Below, piece after piece: positions 12,101 to 56,393 of a DNA stretch of 64,000 nt. The notes below the pieces were generated by a model. It did no database searches, was not told the origin of the DNA, and saw only the letters and a list, made by a program, of their open reading frames with translations. The position numbers and the translations under genes were made by a program. Source of the DNA: Spisula solida (lineage: Eukaryota > Mollusca > Bivalvia > Venerida > Mactridae); the NCBI GenBank assembly GCA_947247005.1, contig OX365954.1, forward strand, positions 512,001 through 576,000, given 5' to 3'. Numbering within the stretch: position 1 is the stretch's first letter; each line of letters starts with the position of its first letter.

Positions 12101-15100
12101 ACTGGTTGGATCAATTTTAAGGAAGTTAATTTGGCTTATGGTTGCCTGCCAAGCATATTTTGCAAGACTCATTAGTACTAAAGCTAGACTAGATATATGT
12201 ACATATCATCATAATTTGGATGTCTGCTACTAAGTCACTGTGTCAAGCAGTATCTGGAGGTATTCGTCACATTCAGTGATATTTCTTGTTATGCTATGAT
12301 TTGGGTTATCATTATACTTGACACAATTTCAGTTTTGGTATCATTTATGATGTCTCCCATGTGTAGTGCATGATGTCCCGATGTCTGGATGGATTTCATA
12401 AAGTTTTTCCACACTTGATCTTTTTAACCATTGGTCAAGTTTCAATGTAACTTCACATGAATACTTTGTTGCATGCCTAGTTGTACATTTACCATTAATC
12501 CCATGTAAAAGACACGGTCATGTATTGAATGCAGGTAAAAAATGAGAGCAGATTCAAGGGAAATTTTTTTTTTGAAGGAAATTGAGCAAAAATTGTGAAA
12601 ATACGAGTTATTTGAATCCCAACCACTTGGTTAGGGTTCATATGTATACAACTTGTAGAACAAGTGCAGTTAACAATGTTATTTTATTTGCAGAGAGTGA
12701 GATGAATCAGAGTAATAACAGCAGTAAAACTAACGTAAGTCTGACCACAGGGGTGTCAATATTCCTGATTAATCTTGAATTCCATATTTATCTATCCTAA
12801 AAGAGCTATGATTTCTCACCAAAATTTGTTTGACGAAAAGATCTCAAGAAATGGCAAACTTAATCTGCTCTGTAGGATTTGAATCAAATACTAACTGAGT
12901 TAAATATGGAAACATTGTGTTTGAAGTGACATGAAGGCCTCTTGTTTGGCAAAAATGGTCAGCGGCATATGATTTTCAGGATTTTTAATTTGCCTCTGTT
13001 GACACCCCTATAACTTTATTATAATTATACATGTATGTGGTGGCACAGTGGACTAGTCTTGCCTATGGATCAAGAGGCCCCTGGTTTAATTCCCTGCTGT
13101 GTTTCTTGATCATGTTTTAAAGGTTTTTCAGTGCTTCTGACCCAACTAGAGATGAACTGGTTGGTAACCCAGGGGTAGTCTCGCCTGTATTTGTGCTGTA
13201 CACAGGGTATCTTAAAAAACACGGAGTCTATTCAGAAAGAGCTAGGACATTACACCTGGATTCTATGTATCACAAACTCACAGTATGTTGACTCACTGTA
13301 CCCCCAAACCGGAAGTCGCTGATAACTAGGCGTTCAGAAAATAAAATGATCGTGTTTACCGTCTCGGATAGTTTGGATTTTATTAGTTTATTCCTTAGTA
13401 TCGCATAAAGTAAGTGCACTGTTTTAGTTAAAATGTAGTCCATAAAATACTGTTTAGGTAGATACCAAACATTCCTGATAAAAGCCCTTATAAACTTTAT
13501 TTTCAAGTTAAATAACGATTAGATATTTGTTTGAGCGTGTAATGAACCTACAAATTCTTTGAAAAATAGTATATTTAGCTTTCCAAATTCTTGCAACCTT
13601 TTCTGCATTGTAAATGAATGTATAACACATCGATACACACAAACATTGCTCTATCTTAACGGATACGTTTTGAAGAAAATGTGTTTTCTGGGACATGTAT
13701 GCCGATTACACTGTACGACTAGTCGAAACATGACTGACCCACTAGTCACATTTTGTAAAATCTGGACTGTACGCTTAGTCGCAAAAAAAAACTGTACGCC
13801 TATGCAAACGTATTTTCAACCTTGCATTTATTGCTCTGACCTTGTTATGTGTTAACCGTAGAAAGTAGACATGGAACAGTATCAATGCTACCGCAGCAAT
13901 TTTTATTCAAAGAAAATGTTTTCTGGAGTAAAAGACCCGAAGAATCTGGGACATATGCATTGAGTAATGACCTTGGATAACTTTGACATTAAAGTTTAGT
14001 ATAATATACGTATAGACACGGTCCCTGTAAAAACTGTGTTTGTTAACTGCATGTAATTATGTGACAGTCCAGTAAAATATAAAGACTTAATAGAATCAAG
14101 AGATGTTTATAAAATTGTAATACATTGTACACGTAAGTCCCCGTGACATCCCGATAGTCAGGAATGTTTAAGGTTGAATGACGACTTTGACTAAATGACC
14201 TTGTTAAGTTATTGAACGGAAACCATTGGACCTATTCATTCATGTTAAAGGTCACATTGATACTGTCCCTTGACCTACCGACCGCACAATCCATATAGGT
14301 CATCTATTGTTGATGCCCGCCGCCCCCTGGAACAAAATATGGATAGGTGCGAAACGGATATGCCAGGGTCATTGGTGAGGAAAATGACCAAAAACTTACT
14401 GTTTTCTTGTCGAAAATAAAGATACAATGCATAACTGATATTTATTATTTCAATGAGTACCTTGAAAAGGCTAATACCCACAGGCATTTCGTAATTGGTT
14501 ATTTGAATATTTTATTGAATAGGCATACAGTGGTACTGCGACTAGTGGGACAGACGGATTTTCGCATTTTCCGAATAGGCGTCCAGTGCATGATTCGAAT
14601 GCACACTGGATTAAACACTATTGCAACGATTCAGGACAGAAATGCATCATTGCACATATACACTCATACGTATAGATTGATAATGAAACACCTAGAAGAG
14701 ATTATTACTCAAGCATTTCGTAATTGGATATTTAAATATGTTATTGAATAGGCGTACAGTGGTGCTGCGACTAGTGGGACAGATGGATTTTCGCGTTTTC
14801 CGAATAGGCGTCCAGTGCATGATTCGAATGCATACTGGATTAGACACTATTGAAACGATTCAGGGGAGAAATGCATCAATGCACGTATAAACTCATACGT
14901 AAAGATTGATAATGAAACACCTAGAAGAGATTAGTACTCGAATTTCCTTATCATTTCCAAAATAACGGACATTTTATCGTGATTGAATCATCTTTCGCTT
15001 TAAGCAGCTGTCTATTTTGAGAAAATACGTTTTCATTTTAAATGCTAATACCTAGTATGGGACATTCTAATGAAGATACTTTTATTTCACGCTAAAAAAA

Positions 15101-36705: not shown

Positions 36706-36794
36706 TTGTTGACATAATGTCATGTACATAAAGATGGTGTAAGATGGCTAGGAAACCACTTCAATTCCATTATACTGTGTGTGGCAGTTGTGAG
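36706..36794 (+). CDS. Gene 2 exon 1 (5' UTR tail and first half of CXXC)
   Basis: Acceptor-like TACTTGCAG at 36705; ATG at 36744 starts MARKPLQFHYTVCGSCE. Donor GAG|GTAAAT, phase 0. The intron cuts the CXXC motif between CGSCE and GC. Confidence 0.8.
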
Positions 36795-39700
36795 GTAAAT
36801 TTTAAGTGATGTTGAAATATTTTAATAAATATTTGGTACAATTTATAATTATATGTTCATATTGGGATACAACATCATCGATGTTAACATCCTTAAATTT
36901 TCAGAACAAACAGGAATTGATATAACTTTTCATTGTGCAAATTTCGTTAAATTATCTTGACAGGTTTAAGAGATAGTTGATAGTTCGCACTATATATTGA
37001 TTTTGAATGATTGTATACTACACTATGACTTTTCAGTAACCATTGCTACCCCATCATGCACTGATCAATTTTCGGTTATTTGTTGCTATTTGAATTTTTA
37101 TTATCCCCGCTGAAGTGCAACTCCTCCTACATTTCTTAAGGGATTTTGACGAAACTTTCACATAATTACTGCTATGATGTCCCGCAGCGCATATTGTCAG
37201 GAATTTTTTATTCAACCATTTTTGAAAGAGTTGTTGCCCTTTGTTGATCTTTTACATATAAACTCTTCTGTGTGCAACTCCTGCATTTCTCTAGGAGTTT
37301 GTCAAAACATTTACAGAAGTACAGTTATGAGGTGCCCTAGCGCATATCCATACATGCCATACTTTGCTGAACCATTTTCAGGAGATTGGTGGTGGAAATG
37401 CAGGAGATTTCAATAAAATGCAGGAGATTTTTCTTACTCGAACTATCGACTAAAATTAATGAAGTTTATATGCAGTTTGTACTTATTTTACTTGTATGAC
37501 AATACCATGCATGCATACATGCTTCGTGAAGTAATTTAAACTAGTGTTTGAGATGATATATTATTCATGATATAAACAACAAATGTCCAGTATGTTCAAG
37601 TCTTATGACTCATAGTTAAATATTTGTAAGTTACCAAACCAAATGCTGACTGGACATGTATTAGTTATTGTTACATTTATGCTATACCAGTTCATTTATC
37701 ATACATCTGAAAATAAGACATGTCAAGCAGAAGATTACCTGATAAAAAAACCATAGAAAAGAACTCATATGTTCAAAATGGTGCTAACATATTCATTCAA
37801 ACTCAAAAATGCATTGATAGTACAGAAATAAAATAAATTCAGTTAATTTAAAAGCTTCAAAAATGTATCTGAAATTGATGTGGACTGAATATCATGCAAA
37901 TTCCAAATTACAAACTAAAACTTTTTGAGGTCCTTTTCCTTTGATACTGTAACTGCAAAGGGAAGTAACTGCTACGAGTTTATTTCTGTAATGTACGGTC
38001 ATGTTTGGGCTTTAAACCTTACCAGTAAACAAACATATTTTCGGCTGCTTGGAAGATGTTTATCAGTTTATGACACCTTAGCGTACTCTTATCGGGACAA
38101 TTATCGATTGTTTATTGGAGTGACCCTCTCCTGGGGTGTTATGAAGGTTTGTTATATAATGACTTGTTGATTAATTGTAAATTTATCACCGGAAATTACG
38201 AGGAAAGGGAAACTTGAATCATTCTGAGATTCTTACGCGGATTTTTGTCAAATCCGGTAGATTTTATCAAAATGCGGGAGTGCGTGAGTTGAGGCTCAAA
38301 TGCGGTAGACTCACGCACGATCCTGGAGATATGGCATGTATGCATATCATCTGGGTTTTTCATTTCGGTCATTTTTGACAGAATTATGGCCCTTTGTTCA
38401 TTTAGTACCTTTGTGGGATATAGAAAAACTGATAAACTCTTCTGTGTGCAACTCTTCCTCCATAATTGATGAAATCTTCTCAGATATACCCTCATGAGAT
38501 GCAATTGTGCATGTTGTCATGGTTTTTAGTCCCCTACCCGTTTTTGACCGGAGGGGACTACAGGTTTGCTTTCCGTCCGTCAGTCAGTCCGTCAAAAAAT
38601 CTGGATCCTGACATAACTCAAACAGTTTCCAAGCTAGGTTTATGAAACTTGGTATGTGGCGAGGGGGCAATAAGGAGATTATGCATGTCTAAAAATATTT
38701 TGATTCTGACAAATATTGTGGTTGCTATGGCAACAGAAAGAGTGAAAATATGCCCAAATCTGAATCCTGCCATAACTCACACAGTTTTCAAGCTAGGTTT
38801 ATGAAACTTAATATGTGGATATTAAGGGGCAATAAGGGGATTATGCACGTGTGATTGCTATGGCAACAAAAACATTGAAAATGGCTTCAAACCGGTAGGG
38901 GACTTCTGTACTGCTTGCCATTCTTAATTACTTGTTAATTTGGCCATTTTGGACATAATTATGGCCCTTTTATCCTCATATTTTTGTTTCTGATGGATAA
39001 CTTAAGTTTGGGATGAAATATCACAATGAAAATTAATGTGTAGATTGTTTGTGTGCAGACAGCACTTGCAATGGGAAGTGAGGTTGGTGGGGGTCTAGGT
39101 CACCATAACTAATAATAGAAAAAAGCATTTATGCTCATATCTTTGTTTCTGATGGATAACTTAAGTTTGGGATGAAATATCACAATTAAAATTAATGTGT
39201 AGATTGTTTGTGTGCAGACAGCACTTGCAATGGGAAGTGAGGTTGGTGGGGGTCTAGGTCACCATAACTAATAATAGAAAAAAGCATTTATGCTCATATC
39301 TTTGTTTCTGATGGATAACTTAAGTTTGGGATGAAATATCACAATGAAACTTGCTGTGTAGGTAGTTTGTGTGCAGACAGCACTTGCAATGGGAAATGGG
39401 GCTGGTGGGGGTCAAGGTCACCATTACTAAAAAATAGGAAAAAGGTTTTCGCTCAATAACTTTTGTAAGGAATGAGATGTCATTGTGAAACTTGGAGTTT
39501 ATGTAGCTTATGTGAAGACTTCACTTGCAATTGACTGTGGGCAGATGGGGATCAAGGTCACAGTTACTTAAAATAGATAAATTGTTTTTGTTCAATAACA
39601 TTAGTTAGGAATACGATATCATGATAAATCTTGCTATGTAGGTAGTAGCTTTTGTGAAGACAACAATTGGTATCTATTGAAAGTGGGACTGGTTGAATCA

Positions 39701-42700
39701 AGGTCACCGTTAACCTGGTTTTCGTGTAATGTTGACTATGTTTATTTTGTATGTAATAAATTTGGATATAGTAAAAAATCTTTTGTGCATCTCAAACATT
39801 TCTCTTGGGATTGAAACCAAACTTTCACACAACTTACGTTATAAAAATATTGATTGTACTCATTAATCTTTGGTACAATTATTTTCCCTTGGGCGGGGGA
39901 TATGGCTGTCTGTGACTGCTTCTTGTTTATATTTGTATCACATTATTATCATGAGGTATTCATCACCTTCTGAAAACTCTTGTTTACTTCAGGGATGTGA
40001 ACAGAAGAATTGTGGCAAATGTGAAAATTGTCAGCACATGTTATGTTTTGGTGGTACAGGAAAAAAGAGAAGGCGATGTATGGCCAAGGTCTGTACTGCT
40101 CAAGGAAAGAAAGTTACCAAATCTCGTAGTCTTTCAACACCTGCCAGGAAAGCTAGTCCATCACCTGCCAGGAAAGCTAGTCTATCATCTTTGAAATTAT
40201 CACCAAAGTCTGTTGGAAAGATTTCCAAGGGAGGAAAGAATGAGCATATAGTAAAATCACTGTCTAGTAACAAACTTAAGGTGAGAACCAACTCAAAAAT
40301 CGAGAAAGCAAGTTCAAAGAAAGTCTGTGATTCAAAAGGGTCTGGGGCACTTCCTAAAGGCTCTGGGACACTTCAAACTGCGACTGTAGCACCTATAAAA
40401 GCACCACGCACATCTCCAAAAGGGTCTGATGAGACATCCCCTAAAAAGTCTAAGAAGTCTCCTATAGATCCCGGGACATCTCCGAAAAAGTCTGCACAAT
40501 CTCCTAGAAAATCTGGGACACCAAAAGGGTCGGAAGTACCTTCTAATAAGAAACAATCTGACTCAAGTGATTGCAGTACCAGTAAAACAAATAAGGTTGA
40601 CAAAATGAAAGTATCAGGCACAGGGACAAAAGCTAATTTGAAAACAGCTCACAGAAATAACGTAAAAAACCTAGCTGATAAAGACAACCTGAGTAAGCCA
40701 GCTACTATTCTTCATAGCAAAAGTATGCCTACCATGGCATCACTATTGAATAGTACACCTCGAGTAAATGATTGCCCTAGTAAGACTGCTAGTATTGGTA
40801 CCATGACTCCAATATCAAAGAAAACATTACTACACAACTTTCTTGAAGTTACTTCTCCAAGTAAACGTGTTCAACTAGCTTCTACTTCTCCAAGTAAACA
40901 AGTTCAACAGACGGCAACTTCTCCAACTAAACGGTTTCAACCGGCAGCAACTACTCCAACTAAACATGTTCAACTGGCAGTTACTAATAGATTTAAGCTG
41001 ACTTCTCCGGAGAAGGTAACTTATCCTTTTATATCACTTTACAGCACTGACGGTCCATATTGGATCGGTTATACCTTACAGCACTGACGGTCCATATTGG
41101 ATCGGTAATACCTTACAGCACTGACGGTCCATATTGGATCGGTTATACCTTACAGCACTGACAGTCCATATTGGATCGGTTATACCTTACAGCACTGACG
41201 GTCCATATTGGATCGGTTATACCTTACAGCACTGACGGTCCATATTGGATCGATTATACCTTACAGCACTGACGGTCCATATTGGATCGGTTATACCTTA
41301 CAGCACTGACGGTCCATATTGGATCGGTTATACCTTACAGCACTGACGGTCCATATTGGATCGTTATACCTTACAGCACTGACGGTCCATATTGGATCGG
41401 TAATACCTTACAGCACTGACGGTCCATATTGGATCGGTTATACCTTACAGCACTGACGGTCCATATTGGATCGGTTATACCTTACAGTACTGACGGTCCA
41501 TATTGGATCGATTATACCTTACAGCACTGACGGTCCATATTGGATCGGTTATACCTTACAGCACTGACGGTCCATATTGGATCGGTTATACCTTACAGCA
41601 CTGACGGTCCATATTGGATCGGTTATACCTTACAGCACTGACGGTCCATATTGGATCGGTTATACCTTACAGCACTGACGGTCCATATTGGATCGGTTAT
41701 CATCTGATTATTGCATATATTTTAATATGCAGCCCGGGTCATTTAGTCCAGAGAATTTGACACAACTCTACCTTATATTAGCATAATTTCAGAGCTTATT
41801 TATTGTCTATATTTATAATCCCGGTTGTGTATTTTTATAAGCGTGGAGTATCACGAAGACGAACAAGGTGTAATACCAACACAAATCTGAAGGACCGATA
41901 TTGCCCGCGGAAATTTATAAATTCAACGCAAGAACCTTGTAATATATTCATGGATCAAGGTCAGGATTAGGTCAAATTATCCGTGCTATACAATTCCGGA
42001 AATCTGCAGAAAATAAAAGTAATTTGATGAAAAAATTAAAGTATTAACAAAGTTATGGTCATTTGAAGTTTTTAAAGCTGAATATAACAATAGAACAATG
42101 CTTGAAACAGTTTTGGTGTAGGGATGTGCAATTTGCACTTGAAACAGACTTATGTATAATTTTTAGGATTGGGGATTATGCTTTAGTATGAGCCCTGTGA
42201 TCTGATTATTGAAATTTTGAAGGGGCCTATAGGAAATTGTGAAGGGGCCTTATATAGGCCCCTCGTATATAGTAAAAAAAGCCCTGCTGTTGTTAATGAT
42301 ATAACTTTAGGATTCAGAGTTTCCCCGACTCATATAGTTCATATTTTGATATTTTCTTCTCAAAGGCTTCACAACCGCCTGATGCAACAGGCCTCCCAGA
42401 GGACATGGCAACAATGCCACGTAAAAAAGATATTCGACTTCCCAAGGTCAAACTAGATTCTATGACAAAGGTAAGGCTGTGTTGATTAGATGTTGGTGCT
42501 ATCATTCTTTGTCCGTTGTCAGTACAAGTTTCATACATGTCTTTGTATTTCAGACCTATTTGTGTAGTTTAGTATTTTGTCGTTTAACACAAATGTTTGA
42601 GAAATTCAGTGGATTTGATGAATACTGTATAGCGGGTATATTTCGCGGGGGTCTAATTTTCGCTATATTCGCGGTTTACATCGATAGCGCGAAATCAAAA

Positions 42701-45700
42701 CCCAGCGAAATATTTCCCTCGTAAATATACAAATTTTACAAAGGGAGACAAGTCATGATTAAAAACATTGAAGAAGCAACCAGAAAAAAACTTGATGACA
42801 TTGCAATAAGTGCGTCGGTTAAGCAAAATAGGGTAAATACGCCAATAAGACTAATAATAAATAACGAAATATAATTCGAAATTAAAACGTGTGTATACTC
42901 TTTGCATGTGTACGTACATCATGTTTTCTCAACGTTAAAGGTGTTAATTATAAGCAGGTGTATCAAACCTGTTGAATTTAATGATTTTATTTGCAAAACG
43001 TGTAAATGTTTGCCGAAAAGTATTTGTTTGTGTACATTTTCTAATGATAGTTAACACGGCCATCGAACAAACCGTTCAGAATAACAGTATCTGCATATCG
43101 GAAGCGTTGATTTGATTTTGCGTGCATGAAAAATAATAACATAGCGTATCGTCAATTATAAATTGTCGGACTTGTTTAATTAATTATTAATTATGGACTA
43201 TGATAGCAATATGGGACTTGTGAAAACGTGCGTATATTCGCAATTAATCAACACTAATTGTCATTACGCCCGGTTTTCTTACAATATTGCATTTAAGTTT
43301 TAAGCTTTATAAATTGCCGTTTTCAGCAATCTTACCTTACGTAAGATTGACCTCCAATTCCATTTTTACCAACCAGGTTTTAAATTCGCGGTCGAGGTAG
43401 TTTGCGCGAAATCAAGACACCGTGAATTCAAAAGGATCCAGATAACGCGAATATTGGACCCCGTGAAATATACCCGCTGTACAGTATCCAAATTTCAGGG
43501 TGTCCGAATACTATTCAACTTCAATTGATAAACAGCTGCACTGAAATTATGACATGTGTATAATACTCGTCACCTTCTTCAAAACCTTTTTCTTATGTCC
43601 CGGCATATACTGATACAGAAGGTATATAGTGATTGTCGGTCCGTCCCATTGAAAATGTTAACCAAAACTTTTAAGTTGATGAAACTCAAGTATTTTTAAA
43701 GTCCATCAAGGCACTGCTTTCAAACTTGGCATACTTGTTAACAATCATAAACACCACCTGACATTGTCACCGCCATGTAGCACTAACCAACATTTCAACG
43801 GAGTTATGGCCCCTGATTTACTTAAGCTTGTTATTAGGGACAAGGCTTCCACTAGGGCTTAAGCGTTTATTGAACGCAGTCAAGTTTTGCATTATTATAA
43901 TAACCTTAATCACTTATGACTGAATTTTAATGAATGCAGGTCAGTTGTGCTTATATCAGAAAAAAACCCATGTTATAATGGCCTGTGGCAACAATTTTAT
44001 TTCCTAGCAAAAGTGTCATGTATTATAATACTATATTATATTTATACTAGACTGTATTATATGCTACTATATATTGCAGAGTGAACTGAAGGAATTTATT
44101 CCACGATTGTTAAAACTTGTGACGGGTAGGGATGAAGTGTTCTACAGTCGACGATCAGCGAGACCCGAGTGGTGGCCGGATGATGTACCATGGGCTGCCA
44201 GTCGTGCTGCTTGGCATACTGAGGTATATATATGTATATGATCAATACACTGTCACATGATCAATACACTGTCACATGATCAATACACTGTCACATGATC
44301 ATTATGCTGTCACATGATCAATACACTGTCACATGATCAATACACTGTCACATGATCAGTACACTATGTTACATAAATTATGTGTCGTTAATCTTCTAGA
44401 TTGTTCTCATTTACTGTGTTAACTGCTTGTATATAAATGGGATTGTATTTGAAATATTTTTGTGAGCTGTTAAAATTGCCAATGTATTCTGGTAGAATGC
44501 CATGCTGAAAATGAGCAAATGTACAGTAAGGCCAGAGTTCTTTTATTTTTTGTTTCTCGGACCCTCCTGCCCAATTTTTGGCATTTTCAAAAATAAAAAA
44601 ATTGAAAAACTGGAAAAAAACAAAATTGCATTATAATGTTTGATGATAAATGGACCAGCCTTGTATTATTATTTCATTATTTTGTTAATAATAAGTTTCA
44701 TTATTTTATAAGGAAATTAATCAAACAACACTGAGGAAGGTTTTACACGAACATTTAATGCTGTGACTAAGCATAAAGTAATCATAACACAGTTTTAGTT
44801 TCAGCTATTATCACCAGCTTGGCTCAATTTAGATCTACATGAATGTATCATACACAATTTGTAATTAAAGCACACAATAAATAGTTTGTAATTAGTGTGA
44901 GTGGAAAATATGGCCGCAGAAACAGATAGGTGGGTCGGCTAGAATAAATTAACGAGAAGTTGTAGCTAGGCCCAAATCTATCTGTTAAATCCAACCAGCC
45001 GAGAGATAGGTATTAGACTTGCCAGACGCAAAATTCACGTTACAATTTGGTAATTGCTATACACCACGCAACTCCTCATCTACTGAAGGATTTACAACAT
45101 GTGTCCTTGGACGCAATGAGACTGGATGCAAAACGAGGTGTTCCCTGTACACAAAGGGAGACAACCTCGGCCTGTATAGACGCAACATGAGGTGTTCCCT
45201 GTACACCAAGGGAGACAACCTCGACCTGTATAGACGCAAAACGCAACATGAGGTGTTCCCTATACACCAAGGGAGACAACCTCGACCTGTATAGACGCAA
45301 AACGCAACATGAGGTGTTCCCTGTACACCAAGGGAGACAACCTCGGTCTGTATAGATCAGATCTATACTTTGTAACATGAGACACAGTATGTCTGAACGC
45401 AACACGCAAAAAACCTGCAAGTACACGCAACATGAGGTGACACCAGTACACAAAGGGCGACAACCTCGACCTGTACAAATTAAATATAACTCCACTTGCA
45501 GGAACACGCAACATGAGGTTTTACCAATACACAAAGGGCAATAACCTCTACTTATGAAATATGCAACTATGTGAATTGCGTCAAGCTATCCTAAATTAGA
45601 ATTTAGTGAACATGTCAGTGACCACCAATACACTGCAGGGATTGGGGTTAGCTACATAAATTTGTAGCCAGGCCCCATCGACAGCTGCAAGTTGGCCACA

Positions 45701-48700
45701 GACTTAAACTATTGTAAAATATTGAAATTCACCACAAATGGTGGATTAGATCTGCTTTAGAATAAATATAAAGGAAAATATTGGCCTAATCTCTCGGCCC
45801 GTTGAATTTTTCCGCGACTAGAAATTCAAAAAATTGTTTACCACGTATAGGAAAGTTCCATTGATGACGAGTTAACTAAACTATTAGATACAGTTTGTGA
45901 ATGAAATAATTATCCCACTTCGATGTCGACTTGACAATAGGATGTCTTGAGCCTGATGTGAATATGTTGAAGCAGCCTGCTGGAACTTTATTTCACTAGC
46001 ATAAGCGGCATGGGCCTGAAAGATATAATATAAAAACCGCAGCAAACAAGTATCACAAAACAAGTCAGTCGGCAATAGAACCAGCATAACCATAGATTCC
46101 GCTAAGCACAACACCTAACAAGCTGACAAGGGGTCTGGGAGGGCGGGTGATTTTCGTGATTATTAATTTTATCGTGTGTTCGGCTACTGCTTGGCGTAAA
46201 AAGGAAGTGGTACAGACTGGTATACAGGTTCCAGTGACGAATGACTAGAAACGAATCCTTTCAGACGAAAAAGTGAGAACCCGCCTACCTTACGGACTGG
46301 GTTACCGACATTACACAGGATCTGCGATTTGCAGAGTTAAACACAGCGGATCAGTCTACCATTTAAATTCGGATGCCTTTTGTTTACATCCAAAAGCTGG
46401 ATAAACACGGAAGTAATTTGTGTAGAGGCTACATGAGCGGAGACACAAGTAATTTGCTAAAAATAAGTGTCGTTATGTTTATGCAATCATAACGAATATT
46501 ATATTAGTGTTTCACTGCAGTGTACTAGTCTTAAGATAAATGGATTGTTTTCTTGAAAACTAACACTGTTGTTGAGTGTTGATTGCTTTAAATCGGACCG
46601 TCATTGACTATTCTACCACCAACAGCTTGTGGAAGCTATATTTTGGGAGTTTTTAACCAGGTTTTTTAAAAAAAAATCCTGGTTATTAGATTGGCGATTT
46701 CGTCGGGCGGGCGGACGGGCGTCAACAATTGGTTTCCGTTGGATAACTTCAGTTAGGAATGAGATATCATAATGAAACTTGCTGTGTAGGTAGCTTGTGT
46801 GAAGACCCCGCTTGGGATTGAAAGTGGGGCTGGTGGTGTCAAGGTCACCGTTACTAAAAATAGAAAATCGGTTTCCGCTCAATAACTTAAGTTAGGAATG
46901 AGATATCATAATGAAACTTGCTGTGTATGTAGTGAAAACCCCGCTTGGGATTGAAAGTGGGGCTGGTGGGGACAAGGTCACCGTTACTAAAAATAGAAAA
47001 ACGGTGTCCGTTCAACAACTTAAGTTAGGAATGAGATATCTTAATGAAACTTGCTTTGTACGTAGCTTGTGTGAAGACCCCGCTTGGGATTGAAAGTGGG
47101 GCTGATGTGGTCAAGGTCACTGTTACTAAAAATAGAAAAACTGTTTTAGCTCAATAACTTAAGTTAGGAATGACATATCATAATGAAACTTGCTGTGTAC
47201 GTAGCTTGTGTGAAGACCCCGCTTGGGATTGAAAGTGTGGTTGGTGGGGTCAAGGTCACTGTTACTTAGAATAGAAAAACGGTTTTTGCTCAATAACTTA
47301 AGTTAGGAATGAGATATCATAATGAAACTTGCTGTGTACATAGCTTGTGTGACGATCCCGCTTGGGATTGAGAGTGGGGCTGGTGGGGTCAAGGTCACCG
47401 TTACTAAAAATAGAAAAACGGTTTTTGCTCAATAACTAAAATTAGGAATGAGATATCATAATGAAACTTGCTGTGTTGGTAAAACGGTTTTTGCTCAATA
47501 ACTTAAGTTAGGAATGAGATATCATAATGAAACTTGCTGTGTACATAGCTTGTGTGACGATCCCGCTTGGGATTGAGAGTGGGGCTGGTGGGGTAGCTTG
47601 TGTGTAAACCCCCCTAGGATAGAAAGTTGGGCTGGTGGGGTCAAGGTCACCGTTACTAAAAATAGAAAATCGGTTTCCGCTCAATAACTTAAGTTAGGAA
47701 TGAGATATCATAATGAAACTTGCTGTGTATGTAGTGAAAACCCCGCTTGGGATTGAAAGTGGGGCTGGTGGGGACAAGGTCACCGTTACTAAAAATAGAA
47801 AAACGGTGTCCGCTCAATAACTTAAGTTAGGAATGAGATATCTTAATGAAACTTGCTTTGTACGTAGCTTGTGTGAAGACCCCACTTGGGATTGAAAGTG
47901 GGGCTGATGTGGTCAAGGTCAAGGTCACTGTTACTAAAAATAGAAAAACTGTTTTAGCTCAATAACTTAAGTTAGGAATGACATATCATAATGAAACTTG
48001 CTGTGTACGTAGCTTGTGTGAAGACCCCGCTTGGGATTGAAAGTGTGGTTGGTGGGGTCAAGGTCACTGTTACTTAAAATAGAAAAACGGTTTTTGCTCA
48101 ATAACTTAAGTTAGGAATGAGATATCATAATGAAACTTGCTGTGTACATAGCTTGTGTGACGATCCCGCTTGGGATTGAGAGTGGGACTGGTGGGGTCAA
48201 GGTCACCGTTACTAAAAATAGAAAAACGGTTTTTGCTCAATAACTAAAATTAGGAATGAGATATCATAATGAAACTTGCTGTGTTGGTAAAACGGTTTTT
48301 GCTCAATAACTTAAGTTAGGAATGAGATATCATAATGAAACTTGCTGTGTACATAGCTTGTGTGACGATCCCGCTTGGGATTGAGAGTGGGGCTGGTGGG
48401 GTAGCTTGTGTGTAAACCCCCCTAGGATAGAAAGTTGGGCTGGTGGGGTCAAGGTCACCCTTACTAAAAATAAAAAAAACGGTTTCCGCTTAATAACTTA
48501 AGTTAGGGATGAGATATCATATTGAAACTTGCTGTGTAGGTAGCTTGTGAGAAGATGCAGCTTGGGATTGCAGAGTGGGACCAGTCAGTGGGGTCAAGGT
48601 CACTGTTACTAAAATAGGAAAAACAGTTTCTGCTCAATAACTTCCACAGTCATTTCTCAGTTATTACCTGTCCTGTGGACTTTTTTCTGAAAAATGTCCG

Positions 48701-51700
48701 AGTAACAAAAAATTAAAAAACTGGCCTAAGGAATACAGCTAGTAAAGTAGTTACAATTTACAAATTTAAAAAGCTAAGCATGCACAAAGTATGAAAACAA
48801 GATGTAATGGAGGTAAACATGATACATAGAACAATTACTGTTACACTACAGGAAGTTAATATTAGTACAGACATCAGTCGGTATTATAACTGAAGTTAAA
48901 CGTTGAGTACCTAGATGAAATTTATGTGATTATTTTCAGAAATATTGGATGGACAATTTGAGGTCGGTTGTGAAGAATTGTTACAAGTATGTAGGAAAGG
49001 AAGAATTAATTCAGTCCTTTGTTGTACCAGAGGTAAATATATAAAATAAAAATACAATTTCTGATTTTTTGTGCATGAGTTAACCAGTCATGGCAGGTCA
49101 TACAGTTCAATGAAAATTTGACAACAATGTTGATTTTCCTCCACATGTGGAGAAGTTGCTTGTTCATTGTAGAAGGGGAAATTGGAACTGGTTAGGATAC
49201 AGTCCAGGAAAATTGGTTAGGTGAATCTGCTTTGGTATATAACTGAACAATTAAGAAACAGCGATAAATCTGAACCAACAAACAACTGGATTATGCTGTA
49301 TTTTAAAAGTGTATGTACATTGTCCTTACCGGTAGAACACTATATTGTGGTCAGATGCTGCTCTCCATGCTGTACTCTAGGCCTAATTGGTAATGTTTTA
49401 TCAAAGCATTTACGGAAATCAAGTGTGGTAAATGGAGCTGCAATACTAATAATGATTTAGTTAATGAACTCCTACAAACCATATCTTTCACCAATTTGCA
49501 GTTGTTTAAGAATTACAAAGAATTTAAATTTGAGTTGTAACTTTGATAAAACTGTACCCTGTACACTAGCACATCGTCTCATGTACATTGTACACTAGCA
49601 CACCGTCTCATGTACCCTGTACACTAGCACACCGTCTCATGTACCCTGTACACTAGCACACCGTCTCATGTACATTGTACACTAGCACACCGTCTCATGT
49701 ACATTGTACACTAGCACATCGTCTCATGTACATTGTATACTAGCACATCGTCTCATGTACATTGTACACTAGCACACCGTCTCATGTACATTGTACACTA
49801 GCACACCGTCTCATGTACATTGTACACTAGCACATCGTCTCATGTACATTGTATACTAGCACATCGTCTCATGTACATTGTACACTAGCACATCGTCTCA
49901 TGTACATTGTACACTAGCACACCGTCTCATGTACCCTGTACACTAGCACACCGTCTCATGTACCCTGTACACTAGCACACCGTCTCATGTACCCTGTACA
50001 CTAGCACATCGTCTCATGTACCCTGTACACTAGCACACCGTCTCATGTACCCTGTAACCTAGCACATCGTCTCATGTACATTGTACACTAGCACATCATC
50101 TCATGTACCCTGTACACTAGCACACCGTCTCATGTACATTGTACACTAGCACACCGTCTCATGTACCCTGTACACTAGCACATCGTCTCATGTACCCTGT
50201 AACCTAGCACATCGTCTCATGTACCCTTGTACACTAGCACACCGTCTCATGTACCCTGTACACTAGCACATCGTCTCATGTACCCTGTACACTAGCACAC
50301 CGTCTCATGTACCCTGTAACCTAGCACACCGTCTCATGTACCCTGTACACTAGCACACCGTCTCATGTACCCTGTACACTAGCACATCGTCTCATGTACC
50401 CTGTAACCTAGCACACCGTCTCATGTACCCTGTACACTAGCACACCGTCTCATGTACCCTGTACACTAGCACATCGTCTCATGTACCCTGTAACCTAGCA
50501 CATCGTCTCATGTACCCTGTACACTAGCACACCGTCTCATGTACATTGTACACTAGCACACCGTCTCATGTACCCTGTACACTAGCACATCGTCTCATGT
50601 ACCCTGTACACTAGCACACCGTCTCATGTACCCTGTACACTAGCACATCGTCTCATGTACCCTGTACACTAGCACATCGTCTCATGTACATTGTACACTA
50701 GCACACCGTCTCATGTACATTGTACACTAGCACATCGTCTCATGTACCCTGTACACTAGCACACCGTCTCATGTACCCTGTACACTAGCACACCGTCTCA
50801 TGTACATTGTACACTAGCACACCGTCTCATGTACATTGTACACTAGCACATCGTCTCATGTACATTGTACACTAGCACATCGTCTCATGTACATTGTACA
50901 CTAGCACACCGTCTCATGTACATTGTACACTAGCACACCGTCTCATGTACATTGTACACTAGCACATCATCTCATGTACATTGTACACTAGCACACCGTC
51001 TCATGTACATTGTACACTAGCACACCGTCTCATGTACCCTGTACACTAGCACACCGTCTCATGTACCCTGTACACTAGCACACCGTCTCATGTACATTGA
51101 ACACTAGCACACCGTCTCATGTACCCTGTACACTAGCACACCGTCTCATGTACCCTGTACACTAGCACATCGTCTCATGTACCCTGTACACTAGCACACC
51201 GTCTCATGAACCCTGTACACTAGCACATCGTCTAATGTACCCTGTACACTAGCACACCGTCTCATGTACCCTGTACACTAGCACATCGTCTCATGTACCC
51301 TGTACACTAGCACACCGTCTCATGTACCCTGTACACTAGCACATCGTCTCATGTACCCTGTACACTAGCACACCGTCTCATGTACCCTGTACACTAGCAC
51401 ATCGTCTCATGTACATTGTACACTAGCACACCGTCTCATGTACCCTGTACACTAGCACACCGTCTCATGTACCCTGTACACTAGCACACCGTCTCATGTA
51501 CCCTGTACACTAGCACATCGTCTCATGTACCCTGTAACCTAGCACATCGTCTCATGTACATTGTAAATGGCATAGATTTTATCAGGGAATGTCTGAACTA
51601 GCACACCGTCTCATGTACATTGTAAATGGCATAGATTTTATCAGGGAATGTCTGAACTAGCGCACCGTTAATTAGGACATTAAATAACCTTGCCTGTCAT

Positions 51701-54700
51701 TCATGATAAGAAAACCTGAATGTGTATGAATATGTCAGCATTATGAATTGGAGTTATTTTGTATCTGTTAAAAAATGGTGTACTTTCATACCTGATATTG
51801 GAGGGTATTTATAATTAGGTGATGCTGCCAGGTAAAGTTTTAACTCTATATACTTGATAATGAAGCGTGTTGACATATTGTATGGTTTAAAGTGAAGTAG
51901 AGCTGTGAGTTATTACTCAGACAAATCAACCTGATACATTAGAACTAGTACTGTAACAGTGGAATGCTTGTCTACATTACACTTTGGTATCTGTATATAT
52001 CCATGCAGGAAGTCTTTACACTTTGGTTTCTATATATGCATGCAGGAAGTGTTTTGATTACCCACCAGCTTTACTTTAAATGTAAATCTAAAGGTTTGTT
52101 GATGCACTGCTTGATCACAGAAATTAACCCATTATGCCTGAAAAACTTGTAATATATTCATTCATATCATGATAAGTCAAGGGTGCTAATTTTGGATAAT
52201 AACGCAAAACAATTATATATGAGTTTTTACGTTGTACAGATAAATTCATGAAGGCATACTGCATATATGTTCTGGTGATGGTACTGGCCAATATTTTCGA
52301 GGGCTGCTTTCAGCAGTTCAGCCCTCTTTAGTCGAGTGGAGCATTGTGGGTTATTCTTGCTCAGAGAAATTAAGCAGTGGCGCAGACGAGGATCGAACCC
52401 GGGAACTTTCGATCTGGAAGCGTCAACCCTACCTCTAGGCCACCGCCTCCCGCAGTGTCGTTCCTATTCTAACGGCCAGCTGTTATGAGGCACTTATATA
52501 ATACATTTATTTCCTGACTCCTACCTTTCTAATGTCAGGCACCAGGCTGTTACGCTCATATGAAACTTGTTTAACCATCTGGAAGCTCACCACCCAGCCA
52601 TATCAGCACAGACTTTTGAGATTTGAACCTTTGACCTCCTGTTTTCAAGCTGGATGCCTTCATCTCCCATTCACAGAGACTATATATATGATACAGAACA
52701 TTGATTTGTTATGTGTTTCAGGATACAGAGTATAAAGGCTTGTACCCTCCATCTCCACTGAAAATGCGAATGTTTCCACAAGGTGAGTCATCTTGTCTGT
52801 TATAATTCTTCTTTTATAGTCAGGGGTCAGTTTTTAAAGCTGAATTTAACAATAGAATAATGTTTGAAACAGTGTTTTGGTGTAGGGATGTGTGCAAATT
52901 TGCGTCTAATTTTCAGGATTGAGTATTACGCCTTAGAAGGACCCTTGCATAGTGCCGATTCAAATATTTCCATATTTGTCTGTATATGCGAAAATACTTG
53001 TGAATATATTTGACGACCCTAATAGTTAATAGTGTTGATCAGGAAATTGATTAATTGACTAATGTTGTAATCTAATCTCAAATGACTTTAAATATCAGTA
53101 GAATTGATTTTATTTAAAATGTCAAGTTCGCACATGAGGATACCTTGGTTGTAACCCAGTATCATCAACACACGATGCTTTCGTTTCTGCATCTACACAT
53201 ACCAGTAGAAGACTGAGACTGACCAAATTTGGGACAATATCTTGGACATGATTGGCTTAAGTTCATCATTCCCAACTGTTCCCCCAGAACAACACAACCC
53301 TTCTGTTACATAAATAAAATCAATCAGTTTAGTCAATTAGTCAATTATCAGTCACTTGGTTTGAAGTGACGATCTGTGATCAAGTCTCAAGTGATTCCCA
53401 TAACAATCAGGACCTGTTCCAGAACTATCCGGAAATTCGGATTTGCTGCACTGGAAAGAATGAAATTTCTCTGCAGAAAATAAGATTTATTTTAAGAAAA
53501 AGTACCCAATTTTGACTCAGTTAGGGTCATTCAAAATTTCGTCAGCTGAGTTTTGCTGTTGGGATGTTTGCTAATTATGGCACCCGAAACAGACATGTGA
53601 CTCATTTTCAGGATTGAGCATTATGCCTCTGTAGGACCCCTGAACTATGTACCTTTTCCTGTATTATCTTGTTTAACATTCTTGTAAAACATCAATGAAT
53701 TTATATCACACTGACCAACAGATATATACTGAAGTAAAATGAATTCATGTGTAAAAGTCGGGGGTGTCAATATTCCTGATTTATCCGGATTTATCTATCC
53801 TGAAAGAGCTATGATTTCTTACCAAAATAAAAGTTATTTGATGAAAATATCTCAAGAATTGGCAAAGTTACGGTTGATTTAATCTTCACAGAAGGATTTT
53901 ATTCAATACAAACTGAGTTAAATATAGAAACAATGTGGTTGATGGCCTTTTGTTTGGTGAAAATGGCCGGCCGCTTATGATTTTTAGGATTTTTAATTTG
54001 ACACTGTTGACAGCCCTGAAAATTGTAAGTCTTCATTAATTGAATATATATTCATTTCAGATTTGTTCCTACCGTTCTCAGCTGAAATCTACATTTGCTT
54101 CTTTTGTGAGAAGGAATTCTTGAGTAAAGACAAAATGCGGAGTCATCAAAAAGGTTGTATTGAGAGACCTCCTAATTTGCAGAGTGTTAGTACTGTGCCA
54201 CCGTCTGAAAACAATGTGAATCAAGGTCCGCCTTGTATGAGTCCAAAACGTCCTCTTGCTCAGAAATGGTCCGACTTAACTAAGACTGCATTTACTGAGA
54301 ATATTGGCTTAGTGCCAAAACATACAGCAGCGAAACTAAGAGAACAAAGGCCAAGTCTTGAAGAAATTAACTGTGAAATATTAGATGATGTAGAGCCTAT
54401 GTCTCCTGTAACTCCGAAGACTCCAAAGTCTTTGATATCTCAGCTGAGTCGTGAGGACAGCGGGCATGCTTCTAGGAAGAGGTTGTCATATTCTATCTCA
54501 ATGGACAAACCGGACAAAGATAAAATTGATATTATTGTAGAAAGTGATTCTGACAGTGAGACTGAAACCGGTACGGTGAAGAAACCTGTCCAGGAGATGA
54601 ATCTGTTGGACATACCGATAAGTTCATTGTTAGGACAAAGAGTGAAGAACAATATACATGTGGATGCTCCTCTATGCATTGTTGAAGATACTGGATCATT

Positions 54701-56393
54701 CTGTCGTACTCCTGTGAAAAATTCCTTCTTAGAGAAGTTGAGGAAGAAGCCTATGGCTTACCCGGTACTATATCGTCCTAGACGTATTGCTAACTTACAT
54801 AAACAGAATCATGTCTATCGTTTCAAGAAATCGGAAGTAAAAGAATTCATGTGTCGAGCTAGCACTGGGCTGAACTTGAAAAGTGTAGAAAAGTTGAAAT
54901 CAATGAAAAAGTTTAGTATACGACTTCGCCGTTTGTCTCGTAGAAGGATGCTGGAGTGGATACCTAGAGGAAGACTTGATAGGCAGTTGATGGGCAAGTT
55001 TAAGGGATTGAAGTACAGATTTGATGCTAGATATGATGACATGGAATGCATGTTTCCATCAGGTCCCACCTTACTGGCCAAAAATATAGATAAACTGCTT
55101 GGTCTGAAGATTCGAAATTCGCAAACAACAAAACCAAAACTGAATCATTCATTGTCTTTAAGCAACTGTATATCGGAGGAGATGGAAGCTGAAGTATCCA
55201 AACAAAAGCTGACATTATATAGGAGCTTATTGTACGAGATGTCGGTACTTAAAGCAGCAGTTGTTGTTGAAGATGTTGGTAAATCAGATCATGTTACAAA
55301 GAATAACAATAACAATACAAGTGATACAAAAAACTGTCAAACTCCAAGTCTTAATAATGACGAGGAGAACAAATCTGATTATCCGAATCTTAGAACAATT
55401 TTGCTTCGTCCTAATTTACCGTCGATGCCGTCTATAGTGAGTTCTACGCCAGTGTCACTGTATATACCTGAGAAGAAGGAAACTAAGCAATCGAAAGATT
55501 GTTCACTCTCTATAATATCGGTCGGATCGTCAGATTCTGACTCGTTGCTGTCAACTTGTTGTCAAGCGTGTAGTGAGAAGCAGCATGGTTCACCATATTA
55601 TCCTAGCCCTAATGGAGGAAAGCCATGTGTATGTGTACATGGTGAACACGGTGATGGTTCCATGCATGGACCACTTCATGTACAAGTTGATATGCCTGTA
55701 GGCTCAAAGACTGAAGACTATGGTATACCCTCGCCTATATCCGTGTCGAGTGAGTCACCATTCCCACCCTCTGTATTCAAAGCTGAGAGTATACCTCAGG
55801 GGAAACTTATAGACTTATCTCCATCATCTTCTCCTGGTAGGGAGACTAGATATTCTCGGTCCTCTCAGTCACCGGTAAAACATGAAAAAAGTACTGCAGC
55901 TGGCAAAGTATCGAAGTTGATCAATGTAGACAGTGCTAGGGGTCGTAAAAAATGGACTAAGAAGAAATGTGACCCAATCACAATGTTGACAAGGTCATGC
56001 TCGGTCACGCCAAGTGGAAGTCCATTGAAAAGAATCACAACAAGATTTAATAGTTCATCTTTACCAAGTTCACCCAGAAAGTCTGTGAAACCAACTCTGC
56101 CTTTGGATGTGAAAAGTGTATGTAAAAAACTGAAAAAATCGTCAGATTCTGTCAAAGACAAAGGAAAAATAACTTCAATTTACAGGACAAAGTCTCCTTT
56201 GAAGCGCATGCTTCAGTTGAACAGAGCTTCATCAAACCCTGCTTCACCTTCAAGGAAACAGGTGGTTGATCATTCTACACCACCGGACTCGCCTGCTCGT
56301 GGCAGGAAAAGGAAATCATCACTCCCCATTGACAAAGTATATCCCTCAAAATTACGCAAAGTCGTGTCAGATAATGTGATCAGTAAACAGTAG
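36706..56393 (+). CDS. CXXC zinc-finger / NRF1-like / C2HC nuclear protein (gene 2)
   Basis: Coding from ATG at 36744 (AAGATGG context). Coding exons: 36744-36794, 39993-41015, 42366-42470, 44080-44223, 48940-49032, 52722-52782, 54061-56393. All join in phase (1269 residues). Residues 13-51 form a canonical CXXC finger (CGSCEGC, CGKCENC, FGGTG, final C46 and C51), a fold that binds unmethylated CpG. A Ser/Pro/Lys-rich linker follows. Residues about 388-470 (SMTK, ELKEFIPRLLKLVTGR, EWWPDDVPW, LRSVVKNCYKYVGKEEL) align without doubt with the C-terminal half of the NRF1/Erect-wing DNA-binding domain as I recall it. A C2HC finger (C505, C508, H521, C525) precedes a long low-complexity tail with basic nuclear signals such as RGRKRK. 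I know no described protein with this combination. The function, CpG-dependent transcription control, is inferred. Confidence 0.85.
36717..36742 (+). promoter_or_regulatory. Three short upstream ATGs before the gene 2 start
   Basis: ATG at 36717 (4 codons then TAA), 36722 (6 codons then TAA at 36740) and 36734 (ATG GTG TAA, same stop). The last stop ends one base before the ATG at 36744. Confidence 0.6.
36800..38527. other. Gene 2 intron 1, first part
   Basis: AT-rich. Diverged repeat phrases such as TTATGGCCCTTTG and a duplicated theme CTTCTGTGTGCAACTC at 37265 and 38440 suggest an old repeat, but boundaries are not readable. Confidence 0.4.
38528..38904. repeat. Stem-loop-headed dispersed repeat, AGTCCCC family, copy 2
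   Basis: Head AGTCCCCTACCC...GGAGGGGACT folds on itself, then TTTCCGTCCGTCAGTCAGTC. The right end ACCGGTAGGGGACT inversely matches the left end. Confidence 0.75.
38960..39720 (+). repeat. About 150-bp tandem repeat in gene 2 intron 1
   Basis: ATCTTTGTTTCTGATGGATA and GACAGCACTTGCAATGGGAA recur; the first units are near identical and later ones decay. Related in wording (GAAACTTGCTGTGTAGGTAG) to the 46.7-48.6 kb array. Confidence 0.8.
39993..41015 (+). CDS. Gene 2 exon 2 (second half of CXXC and SPKK-like linker)
   Basis: Acceptor TACTTCAG, donor GAGAAG|GTAACT, 341 codons, phase 0. Codes GCEQKNCGKCENC then many SPARK, SPKKS and TSPSK motifs. Residues 304-347 are four 11-residue repeats of the form TSPSKRVQLAS. 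Such S/T-P-x-K motifs are usual proline-directed kinase sites and SPKK-type DNA contacts. Confidence 0.88.
41038..41700 (+). repeat. 37-bp minisatellite, about 18 copies
   Basis: Unit ACCTTACAGCACTGACGGTC plus CATATTGGATCGGTTAT. It begins about 20 bp after the exon 2 donor. Each unit carries a splice-acceptor-like TTATACCTTACAG. Confidence 0.95.
41735..41985. repeat. Dispersed repeat, pair with 61866-62132
   Basis: Shares TAGTCCAGAGAATTTGACAC, TAGCATAATTT, ATTCAACGCAAG and GGTCAGGAT with the second copy. Non-coding. Confidence 0.7.
41986..42197. mobile_element. CAGGGGTCC-type MITE, truncated left end
   Basis: Carries AATTCCGGAAATCTGCAG, AACAAAGTTATGGTCATTTG and ends TAGTATGAGCCCTG. The left terminus is missing; it abuts the 41735 repeat. 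Confidence 0.6.
42366..42470 (+). CDS. Gene 2 exon 3 (entry to NRF1-like domain)
   Basis: 35 codons, phase 0, acceptor CTCAAAG, donor AAAG|GTAAGG. Ends KKDIRLPKVKLDSMTK; the SMTK boundary matches a DKMTQ segment in NRF1. Confidence 0.8.
42625..43484. mobile_element. 860-bp TA-flanked element, ends CTGTATAGCGGGTATATTTC
   Basis: Left CTGTATAGCGGGTATATTTC and right GAAATATACCCGCTGTACAG are inverted, with TA on both sides. The ends are CpG-rich (TTCGCG). No coding capacity; in the intron between gene 2 exons 3 and 4. Confidence 0.8.
43592..43870. repeat. Dispersed repeat shared with 7815-8110
   Basis: GTCGGTCCGTCCCATTGAAA, TGCTTTCAAACTTGGCATAC and GGAGTTATGGCCCCTGATT mark it. Diverged, non-coding. 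Confidence 0.6.
44080..44223 (+). CDS. Gene 2 exon 4 (NRF1-like core, WWPDDVPW)
   Basis: 48 codons, phase 0, acceptor ATTGCAG, donor GAG|GTATAT. Codes ELKEFIPRLLKLVTGR and PEWWPDDVPWAASR, the strongest NRF1 signature. Confidence 0.88.
44238..44361 (+). repeat. 19-bp minisatellite, about 6.5 copies
   Basis: Unit ATGATCAATACACTGTCAC, with one variant unit. Starts 15 bp after the gene 2 exon 4 donor. Confidence 0.92.
45127..45540 (+). repeat. About 61-bp tandem repeat, 5-6 copies
   Basis: CAACATGAGGTGTTCCCTGT, AAGGGAGACAACCTCGACCT and TATAGACGCAAAACG recur, the last copies diverged. Overlapping open frames on both strands arise from the repeat. Confidence 0.88.
45560..46650. other. Intron sequence, no gene supported
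   Basis: Short open frames only. TAGGCCC and CTCTCGGC-like words in opposite orientation at 44970-45005 and 45665-45800 hint at an older inverted element that I could not delimit. Confidence 0.35.
46655..48660 (+). repeat. Stem-loop-headed repeat with about 139-bp array and 808-bp block duplication
   Basis: Starts with a stem-loop AACCAGG...CCTGGTT, then CGGGCGGGCGGACGGGCGTC, then units around TTAGGAATGAGATATCATAA and GTGTGAAGACCCCGCTTGGG. The junction word GTGTTGGTAAAACGG occurs at 47473 and 48281, showing a block duplication with an 808-bp offset. Confidence 0.9.
48940..49032 (+). CDS. Gene 2 exon 5 (end of NRF1-like domain)
   Basis: 31 codons, phase 0, acceptor ATTTTCAG, donor GAG|GTAAAT. 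Codes LRSVVKNCYKYVGKEELIQS, matching the LRTIVKNCYKQHGRED part of NRF1. Confidence 0.88.
49392..49557. mobile_element. MITE, GTTTTATCAAAGCA family
   Basis: ATGTTTTATCAAAGCATTTA and CTTTGATAAAACTGTAC are the inverted ends. The inner sequence matches 29871 and 57201 in opposite orientation. Its right end runs directly into the 29-bp array. Confidence 0.7.
49555..51570 (+). repeat. 29-bp minisatellite, about 70 copies
   Basis: Unit TGTACACTAGCACACCGTCT plus CATGTACCC. Two common two-state positions (CCCTG/CATTG and CACCG/CATCG) and a rarer GTAACCTAGC variant are mixed along the array. In the gene 2 intron between exons 5 and 6. Confidence 0.97.
51549..51665 (+). repeat. Duplicated end of the 29-bp array
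   Basis: The last units are joined to AAATGGCATAGATTTTATCA and TCTGAACTAGC, and this compound unit occurs twice. Confidence 0.8.
52290..52451 (-). mobile_element. tRNA-derived SINE
   Basis: On the minus strand the sequence starts GGGAGGCGGTGGCCTAGAGG. The A box is TGGCCTAGAGG and the B box GGTTCGATCC, at tRNA spacing. The 3' part contains a small hairpin GAGGGCTG...CAGCCCTC. No target duplication resolved. Confidence 0.7.
52722..52782 (+). CDS. Gene 2 exon 6 (61 bp)
   Basis: Acceptor GTTTCAG, donor CAAG|GTGAGT, phase 0 in and 1 out. Codes DTEYKGLYPPSPLKMRMFPQ. Supported mainly by phase fit with exon 7. Confidence 0.75.
52821..52947. mobile_element. CAGGGGTCC-type MITE, internally deleted
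   Basis: Starts CAGGGGTCAG, ends AGAAGGACCCTTG. Flanks TATAGT and CATAGT differ at one base. Only 127 bp. Starts 38 bp after the gene 2 exon 6 donor. Confidence 0.75.
53408..53642. mobile_element. CAGGGGTCC-type MITE
   Basis: Starts CAGGACCTGTTCC, ends GTAGGACCCCTG. Flanks AACAAT and AACTAT match at 5 of 6 bases. Full-length body. Confidence 0.8.
53759..54018. mobile_element. CAGGGGTGTCAA-type MITE
   Basis: Starts CGGGGGTGTCAATATTCCTG, ends CTGTTGACAGCCCTG. Flanks AAAAGT and AAAATT match at 5 of 6. Ends 42 bp before the last exon of gene 2. Confidence 0.78.
54061..56393 (+). CDS. Gene 2 last exon (C2HC finger and basic tail)
   Basis: Acceptor ATTTCAG; 2333 bp, ending TAG at 56391. Starts with the finger CFFCEKEF...HQKGC, followed by an acidic patch SDSDSETETG, an Arg-rich segment (RLRRLSRRRM), Ser-rich tracts and basic clusters near the C-terminus. 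Confidence 0.92.

Follow-up and report, generated by a model that had tools for sequence, protein, structure and literature searches.

NRF1 is a methylation-sensitive factor and, to our knowledge, is usually taken to be represented by one conserved gene in each animal. As described in PMC10810270, the DNA-binding domain (DBD) of human NRF1 spans residues 201-284 in the crystal structure, reads bases through R206, N242, and R244, and on its own suffices for half-site binding. In CXXC fingers, the KQ/RQ dipeptide contacts CpG, KFGG stiffens the loop, and type-2 fingers without KFGG do not bind, according to PMC3685328 and PMC12361114; the former presents the MBD1 type-2 fingers as modules for interaction. 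Here we analyzed a gene of Spisula solida that joins both kinds of domain. It lies on the plus strand at positions 36744-56393 of the window, i.e., the 64,000-nucleotide stretch 512001-576000 of contig 12 of 36 in this 932-Mb genome. Rebuilding the gene model from the sequence, splice sites and reading frame included, gave seven coding exons for a protein of 1269 amino acids, with GT-AG borders in six out of six introns and a sole stop codon at the end of the frame. From the N- to the C-terminus, the domain order is CXXC finger, basic linker, NRF1-type DBD, C2HC finger, and conserved basic core. As read from its residues, it is NRF1-derived, lacks the NRF1 dimerization domain and the intact base-reading triad, and carries a CXXC finger without the CpG-reading dipeptide. 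The protein is a genuine and novel patchwork, but a simple role as CpG sensor is improbable.

The NRF1-type DBD starts at the end of exon 3 (42366-42470, plus strand; linker end followed by LPKVKLDSMTK) and continues through exon 4 (44080-44223, plus strand; SELKEFIP...EWWPDDVPWAASR...HTE) and exon 5 (48940-49032, plus strand; KYWMDNLRSVVKNCYKYVGKEEL...). The preliminary description of this locus had proposed a comparison with NRF1 profiles, and Pfam Nrf1_DNA-bind indeed matched residues 385-468 with 65.7 bits (E 6.3e-18, cut-off 23.5), covering profile positions 124-212 of 213. The closest solved structures are those of NRF1, 8k3d (78 bits) and 8k4l (76 bits). In a structure model the domain is predicted to retain the NRF1 fold, and its net charge is +3. 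That only the C-terminal half of the NRF1 domain is visible, as had been claimed, did not hold: the DBD (human 201-284) is present in its entirety, and the missing part is the dimerization domain (human 54-172), with no match in the window protein to profile positions before 124. A profile search of the genome likewise found just one matching exon at the window locus, whereas both canonical NRF1 genes match from position 1.

These two complete NRF1 genes lie on the same chromosome at 3.877-3.882 Mb and 17.951-17.956 Mb, 14 Mb apart, and both have the R-N-R triad intact. Each has one intron ending just before A203 and the next two residues before W258, in phase 0. The introns preceding exons 4 and 5 of the window gene match them in exact codon and phase, which points to a copy made at the DNA level and argues against a retrocopy. 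By its sequence, then, the window gene descends from an NRF1 duplicate. The chance of finding the two other loci on this 48-Mb chromosome under random placement is 0.27%, or about 5% if the two canonical genes are mutually dependent.

The residues through which NRF1 reads bases have changed. The window protein has K206/A242/R244, and not one of 24 family proteins (23 from the alignment table plus Mya, read separately; Tegillarca not counted) keeps R206, N242, and R244 together. The K-A-R triad is shared by the window, Mactra, and Mercenaria proteins, while Mya has K-N-Y and Dreissena K-N-I. All 24 relatives lack a residue at K253, where four to five residues are deleted. The Tegillarca triad reads R-A-K by eye, and its model diverges afterwards. 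In a limpet relative, from Patella vulgata (P0073), the DBD is heavily eroded and without an Nrf1 Pfam match in the search listing.

The CXXC finger is encoded by exon 1 (36744-36794, plus strand, 51 bases, phase 0, donor GAG/GTAAAT), which holds the start codon and the first CxxC (MARKPLQFHYTVCGSCE), and by the beginning of exon 2 (39993-41015, plus strand), which also encodes the basic S/T/P/K-rich linker with its short in-frame repeats. As the preliminary description had stated, the finger (C13-C51) is complete only after the exon 1/2 splice, which joins CGSCE to GCEQKNC. A search with the CXXC profile, also proposed there, gave zf-CXXC at residues 12-51 with 30.3 bits (cut-off 26.5). The cysteine clusters of type-1 fingers (CxxCxxCx4-5CGxCxxC, CxxRxC) are present as CGSCEGCEQKNCGKCENC and CMAKVC, with K for R. 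All eight cysteines are kept in the window, Mactra, Mercenaria, and Mya proteins. The Dreissena model begins past the first two, exactly where window exon 2 starts, so that one exon was probably missed in that model. The Mactra antiquata orthologue (P0001) carries three tandem CXXC fingers at residues 29-194, two of them near-identical and without KFGG.

At the KQ/RQ position we found RR in the window protein, KA in Mercenaria, KV in Mya, KK in Dreissena, and KT, KT, and KC in the three Mactra fingers. Thus, K or R is kept at the first position, and the glutamine is absent in all five CXXC-bearing proteins. The KFGG motif reads CFGG in the window and QFGG, IFGG, KFGG, or is absent in the orthologues. 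KQ is intact in the DNMT1 (93 bits to 3pta) and KDM2-type (61 bits to 4o64) fingers of the same genome, the two other CXXC loci listed by a genome search at default E-value, which did not list the window's own split finger. In the PDB, the best match of the window finger is DNMT1 (33 bits). The DNMT1 finger of S. solida is split between CGICE and ACQSPDC in phase 0, so that its intron and that of the window finger agree in codon and phase; the KDM2-type finger contains no intron. Moreover, 19 of 39 residues of the window finger are identical in the DNMT1 of this genome, against 13 of 39 in the KDM2-type finger. Together with the matching intron, this makes DNMT1, of the two CXXC genes compared, the likely donor of the CXXC exons.

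Exon 6 (52722-52782, plus strand, 61 bases; DTEYKGLYPPSPLKMRMFPQ) was located with orthologue peptides, and exon 7 (54061-56393, plus strand) encodes the C2HC finger, the conserved basic core, a low-complexity C-terminus, and the stop. The C2HC finger at residues 493-533 (C-x2-C-x12-H-x3-C) resembles a C2H2 finger whose final histidine is replaced by cysteine. A MYST-type assignment is not favored over a generic C2H2 finger: zf-MYST matched 16 of 38 relatives with E-values no higher than 1 (0.0074 for the best), and C2H2 profiles were similarly weak. For the core, no Pfam domain was common to most members at E up to 1 and no PDB profile matched. The listing of a fold search was filled by the DBD and the finger and thus barely probed the remaining parts. 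Both linker and core are basic, with net charges of +43 over 324 and +20 over 260 amino acids, respectively, and the linker carries ten S/T-P-x-K/R motifs. The short repeats of exon 2 (40138-40980; units of 24, 21, 42, and 33 bases) run in frame and lengthen the linker.

The whole domain order recurs in four annotated proteins, from Mactra, Mercenaria, Mya, and Dreissena (the latter model without the first CxxC), all Neoheterodontei. Such recurrence is unlikely to be chance or artifact and upholds, together with the exon rebuild, the earlier claim of one protein with CXXC, NRF1-type, and C2HC segments; it also answers the proposed search for orthologues. Identity to the window protein (Mactra, Mercenaria, Mya, and Dreissena, in this order) is 88, 82, 64, and 48% in the DBD, 83, 88, 68, and 56% in the C2HC finger, and 72-77, 72-74, 52-59, and 52-59% in the core (641-900). 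The linker reaches 20, 15, 10, and 10%, and the CXXC finger, the least conserved domain, 49, 49, 41, and 34%.

Relatives with DBD, C2HC finger, and core but without CXXC occur in other bivalves and in gastropods. The CXXC pattern was found in four of 80 distinct proteins fetched, those of the four genera above, and in 19 proteins that have the whole DBD but lack a CXXC, the N-terminus lies 29-55 residues ahead of the first DBD helix motif. Three relatives, P0012, P0013, and P0016 (1190, 1193, and 1338 amino acids), are single open frames on contigs of 4137, 3816, and 4375 bases. Since the window gene needs 14 kb of exons and introns for the same part, these look like spliced RNA. They support DBD, C2HC finger, and core on one transcript; containing no CXXC, they do not cover its join. 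After a first protein search with a 1242-amino-acid query without exon 6, a second and a third search returned 64 and 68 proteins, and the organism-named rows (17 and 20) were mollusc genera throughout, where we take the genera other than Mactra, Mercenaria, Mya, and Dreissena to be molluscs. Absence outside molluscs is only weakly indicated, because the second and third searches scored 8000 candidates, the length windows leave out ordinary NRF1 proteins, and no animal genome collection was covered.

In a 29-row core tree, from which 17 of 46 candidate rows, Dreissena included, had been dropped for motif mismatch, the CXXC label takes three changes, because N-terminally cut fragments whose CXXC state is not readable (lgn5, ena6, ena9, and ena10) sit among the bearers. 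A 28-row DBD tree places the CXXC-less lgn12/13/16/65 group inside the bearers, weakly (84/76). In a 22-row core tree restricted to proteins whose N-termini are known or annotated, the five bearers fall on one side of a branch (70/48; 75% of 200 bootstraps). Judging from these trees, a single CXXC gain is plausible, and gain plus loss may also account for them.

We favor, with a probability of roughly 0.55, the reading that the protein is a mollusc NRF1 paralogue, a chromatin-associated regulator that binds DNA as a monomer and with altered specificity. The sequences show an NRF1 gene duplicated at the DNA level, its DBD exons kept and the dimerization domain missing. The duplicate bears the C2HC finger and the basic conserved core in bivalves and gastropods and, in some neoheterodont bivalves including S. 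solida, an N-terminal CXXC finger with its intron placed as in DNMT1. The DBD would dock on DNA as a single unit, minus the paired GCGCATGCGC readout of NRF1, and K206/A242/R244 may relax or change the half-site preference. Basic linker and core could add unspecific contact to DNA or chromatin, the core presumably recruiting partner proteins, and the CXXC finger might contact DNA weakly or at non-CpG sites, or else bind proteins, as described for the MBD1 type-2 fingers. Several points weigh against this reading. The monomeric state is deduced solely from the missing dimerization domain; R244, a CpG contact in NRF1, is kept in the window and in three of the five CXXC bearers overall; the exchange of R206 for lysine is conservative, so that a CpG-containing half-site may still be bound; the core, the supposed recruiter of partners, matches nothing in Pfam or the PDB; and the CXXC donors compared were DNMT1 and the KDM2 type only.

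The earlier proposal was that of a dedicated CpG-state transcription factor, in which two methylation-sensitive modules, CXXC and NRF1-type, both bind unmethylated CpG. Both domains do exceed their Pfam cut-offs, all eight CXXC cysteines and the first K/R of the dipeptide are retained, and R244 persists in the window, Mactra, and Mercenaria proteins. However, the glutamine is lost in five of five proteins, the dimerization domain is absent, and R206 has become lysine in every bearer, with N242 lost in three and R244 in the other two. With K-A-R and RR at the contact positions, we consider such a factor improbable; CpG binding may have been lost, although the window protein keeps R244. A modulator of NRF1, sitting as a monomer on TGCGC half-sites and competing with or assisting the NRF1 dimer, would fit the half-site binding of the isolated NRF1 DBD (PMC10810270), the retained R244, and the presence of two complete NRF1 genes in the genome. 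The changes at R206 and N242, the loss of R244 in Mya and Dreissena, and the lack of a known heterodimer route without the dimerization domain make this reading, too, unlikely.

Drift of the base-contact residues, core blocks 52-77% identical to the window in four orthologues, and the precedent of the MBD1 interaction modules (PMC3685328) could also mean that both modules have given up specific DNA binding and act as protein-interaction surfaces, while function lies in the conserved core. We find this doubtful, since the DBD is conserved like the core, keeps its modeled fold, and is positively charged. A gene-model artifact uniting CXXC and NRF1 exons of neighboring genes is very improbable. 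It is true that the S. solida gene is known from genomic sequence alone, that 14 kb of introns with minisatellites lie between the domains, and that exon 2 may read through 24 codons to an intronic stop. The recurrence of the order in four annotated proteins rules out an artifact as the leading explanation, and exons 1-5, each divisible by three in length, join in phase 0; DBD, C2HC finger, and core moreover form one frame on contigs of 3.8-4.4 kb in three relatives, albeit without CXXC. A bolder version of the favored paralogue, a neoheterodont reader in which DNMT1-derived CXXC exons came to precede a non-dimerizing NRF1 duplicate and both CpG-reading surfaces were re-tuned jointly toward a composite site foreign to either parent, we regard as speculative.

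Within the introns of the gene, minisatellites occupy 41039-41700 (37-base unit, 17.9 copies, about 25 bases past the exon 2 donor) and 49553-51559 (29-base unit, 69.2 copies). Upstream, at 5681-16278 on the plus strand, lie exons of a PDZ-domain gene closest in the PDB to glutamate receptor interacting protein (GRIP). An Rfam scan of the window gave no match at the gathering threshold, and a script found no GCGC..GCGC (NRF1 sites) in it.

The domain order is already present in databases, unnamed, and we found no description of it in the open-access papers searched, in agreement with the preliminary description. In this family, an NRF1 duplicate appears to have lost dimerization; the residues that read bases have been exchanged, and within one bivalve clade the duplicate stands behind a DNMT1-like finger. 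If binding data agree, exon shuffling would have turned a CpG reader into a different DNA reader. The natural series of triads (R-N-R, R-D-K, Q-G-K, K-A-R, and others) lends itself to testing NRF1 DBD specificity, and domain hits alone are insufficient for naming such proteins CpG sensors.

Compared with NRF1, P3A2, and Erect wing (PF10491), the window protein shares the DBD over human 194-282, the predicted DBD fold, and two intron positions with their phases, but it lacks the dimerization domain, has a changed triad and five residues deleted around K253, and adds CXXC, C2HC finger, and core. With the type-1 CXXC finger of DNMT1 it has in common the eight cysteines, the top PDB match, and the intron codon and phase, and it differs in CFGG for KFGG, RR for KQ, the 19 of 39 identical residues, and the absence of a methyltransferase. 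MBD1 type-2 fingers resemble it in a CXXC framework without KQ/RQ, and the three tandem fingers of Mactra recall the three of MBD1; unlike these, the window finger retains FGG of the type-1 loop, and Pfam finds no MBD. Unnamed proteins of Ostrea, Argopecten, Mytilus, Solemya, Haliotis, and other molluscs show the same arrangement of DBD, C2HC finger, and core, whereas CXXC is missing. The unnamed Mactra, Mercenaria, Mya, and Dreissena proteins, likely orthologues, share the entire architecture, differing in the three CXXC fingers of Mactra and the Dreissena model that lacks the first CxxC.

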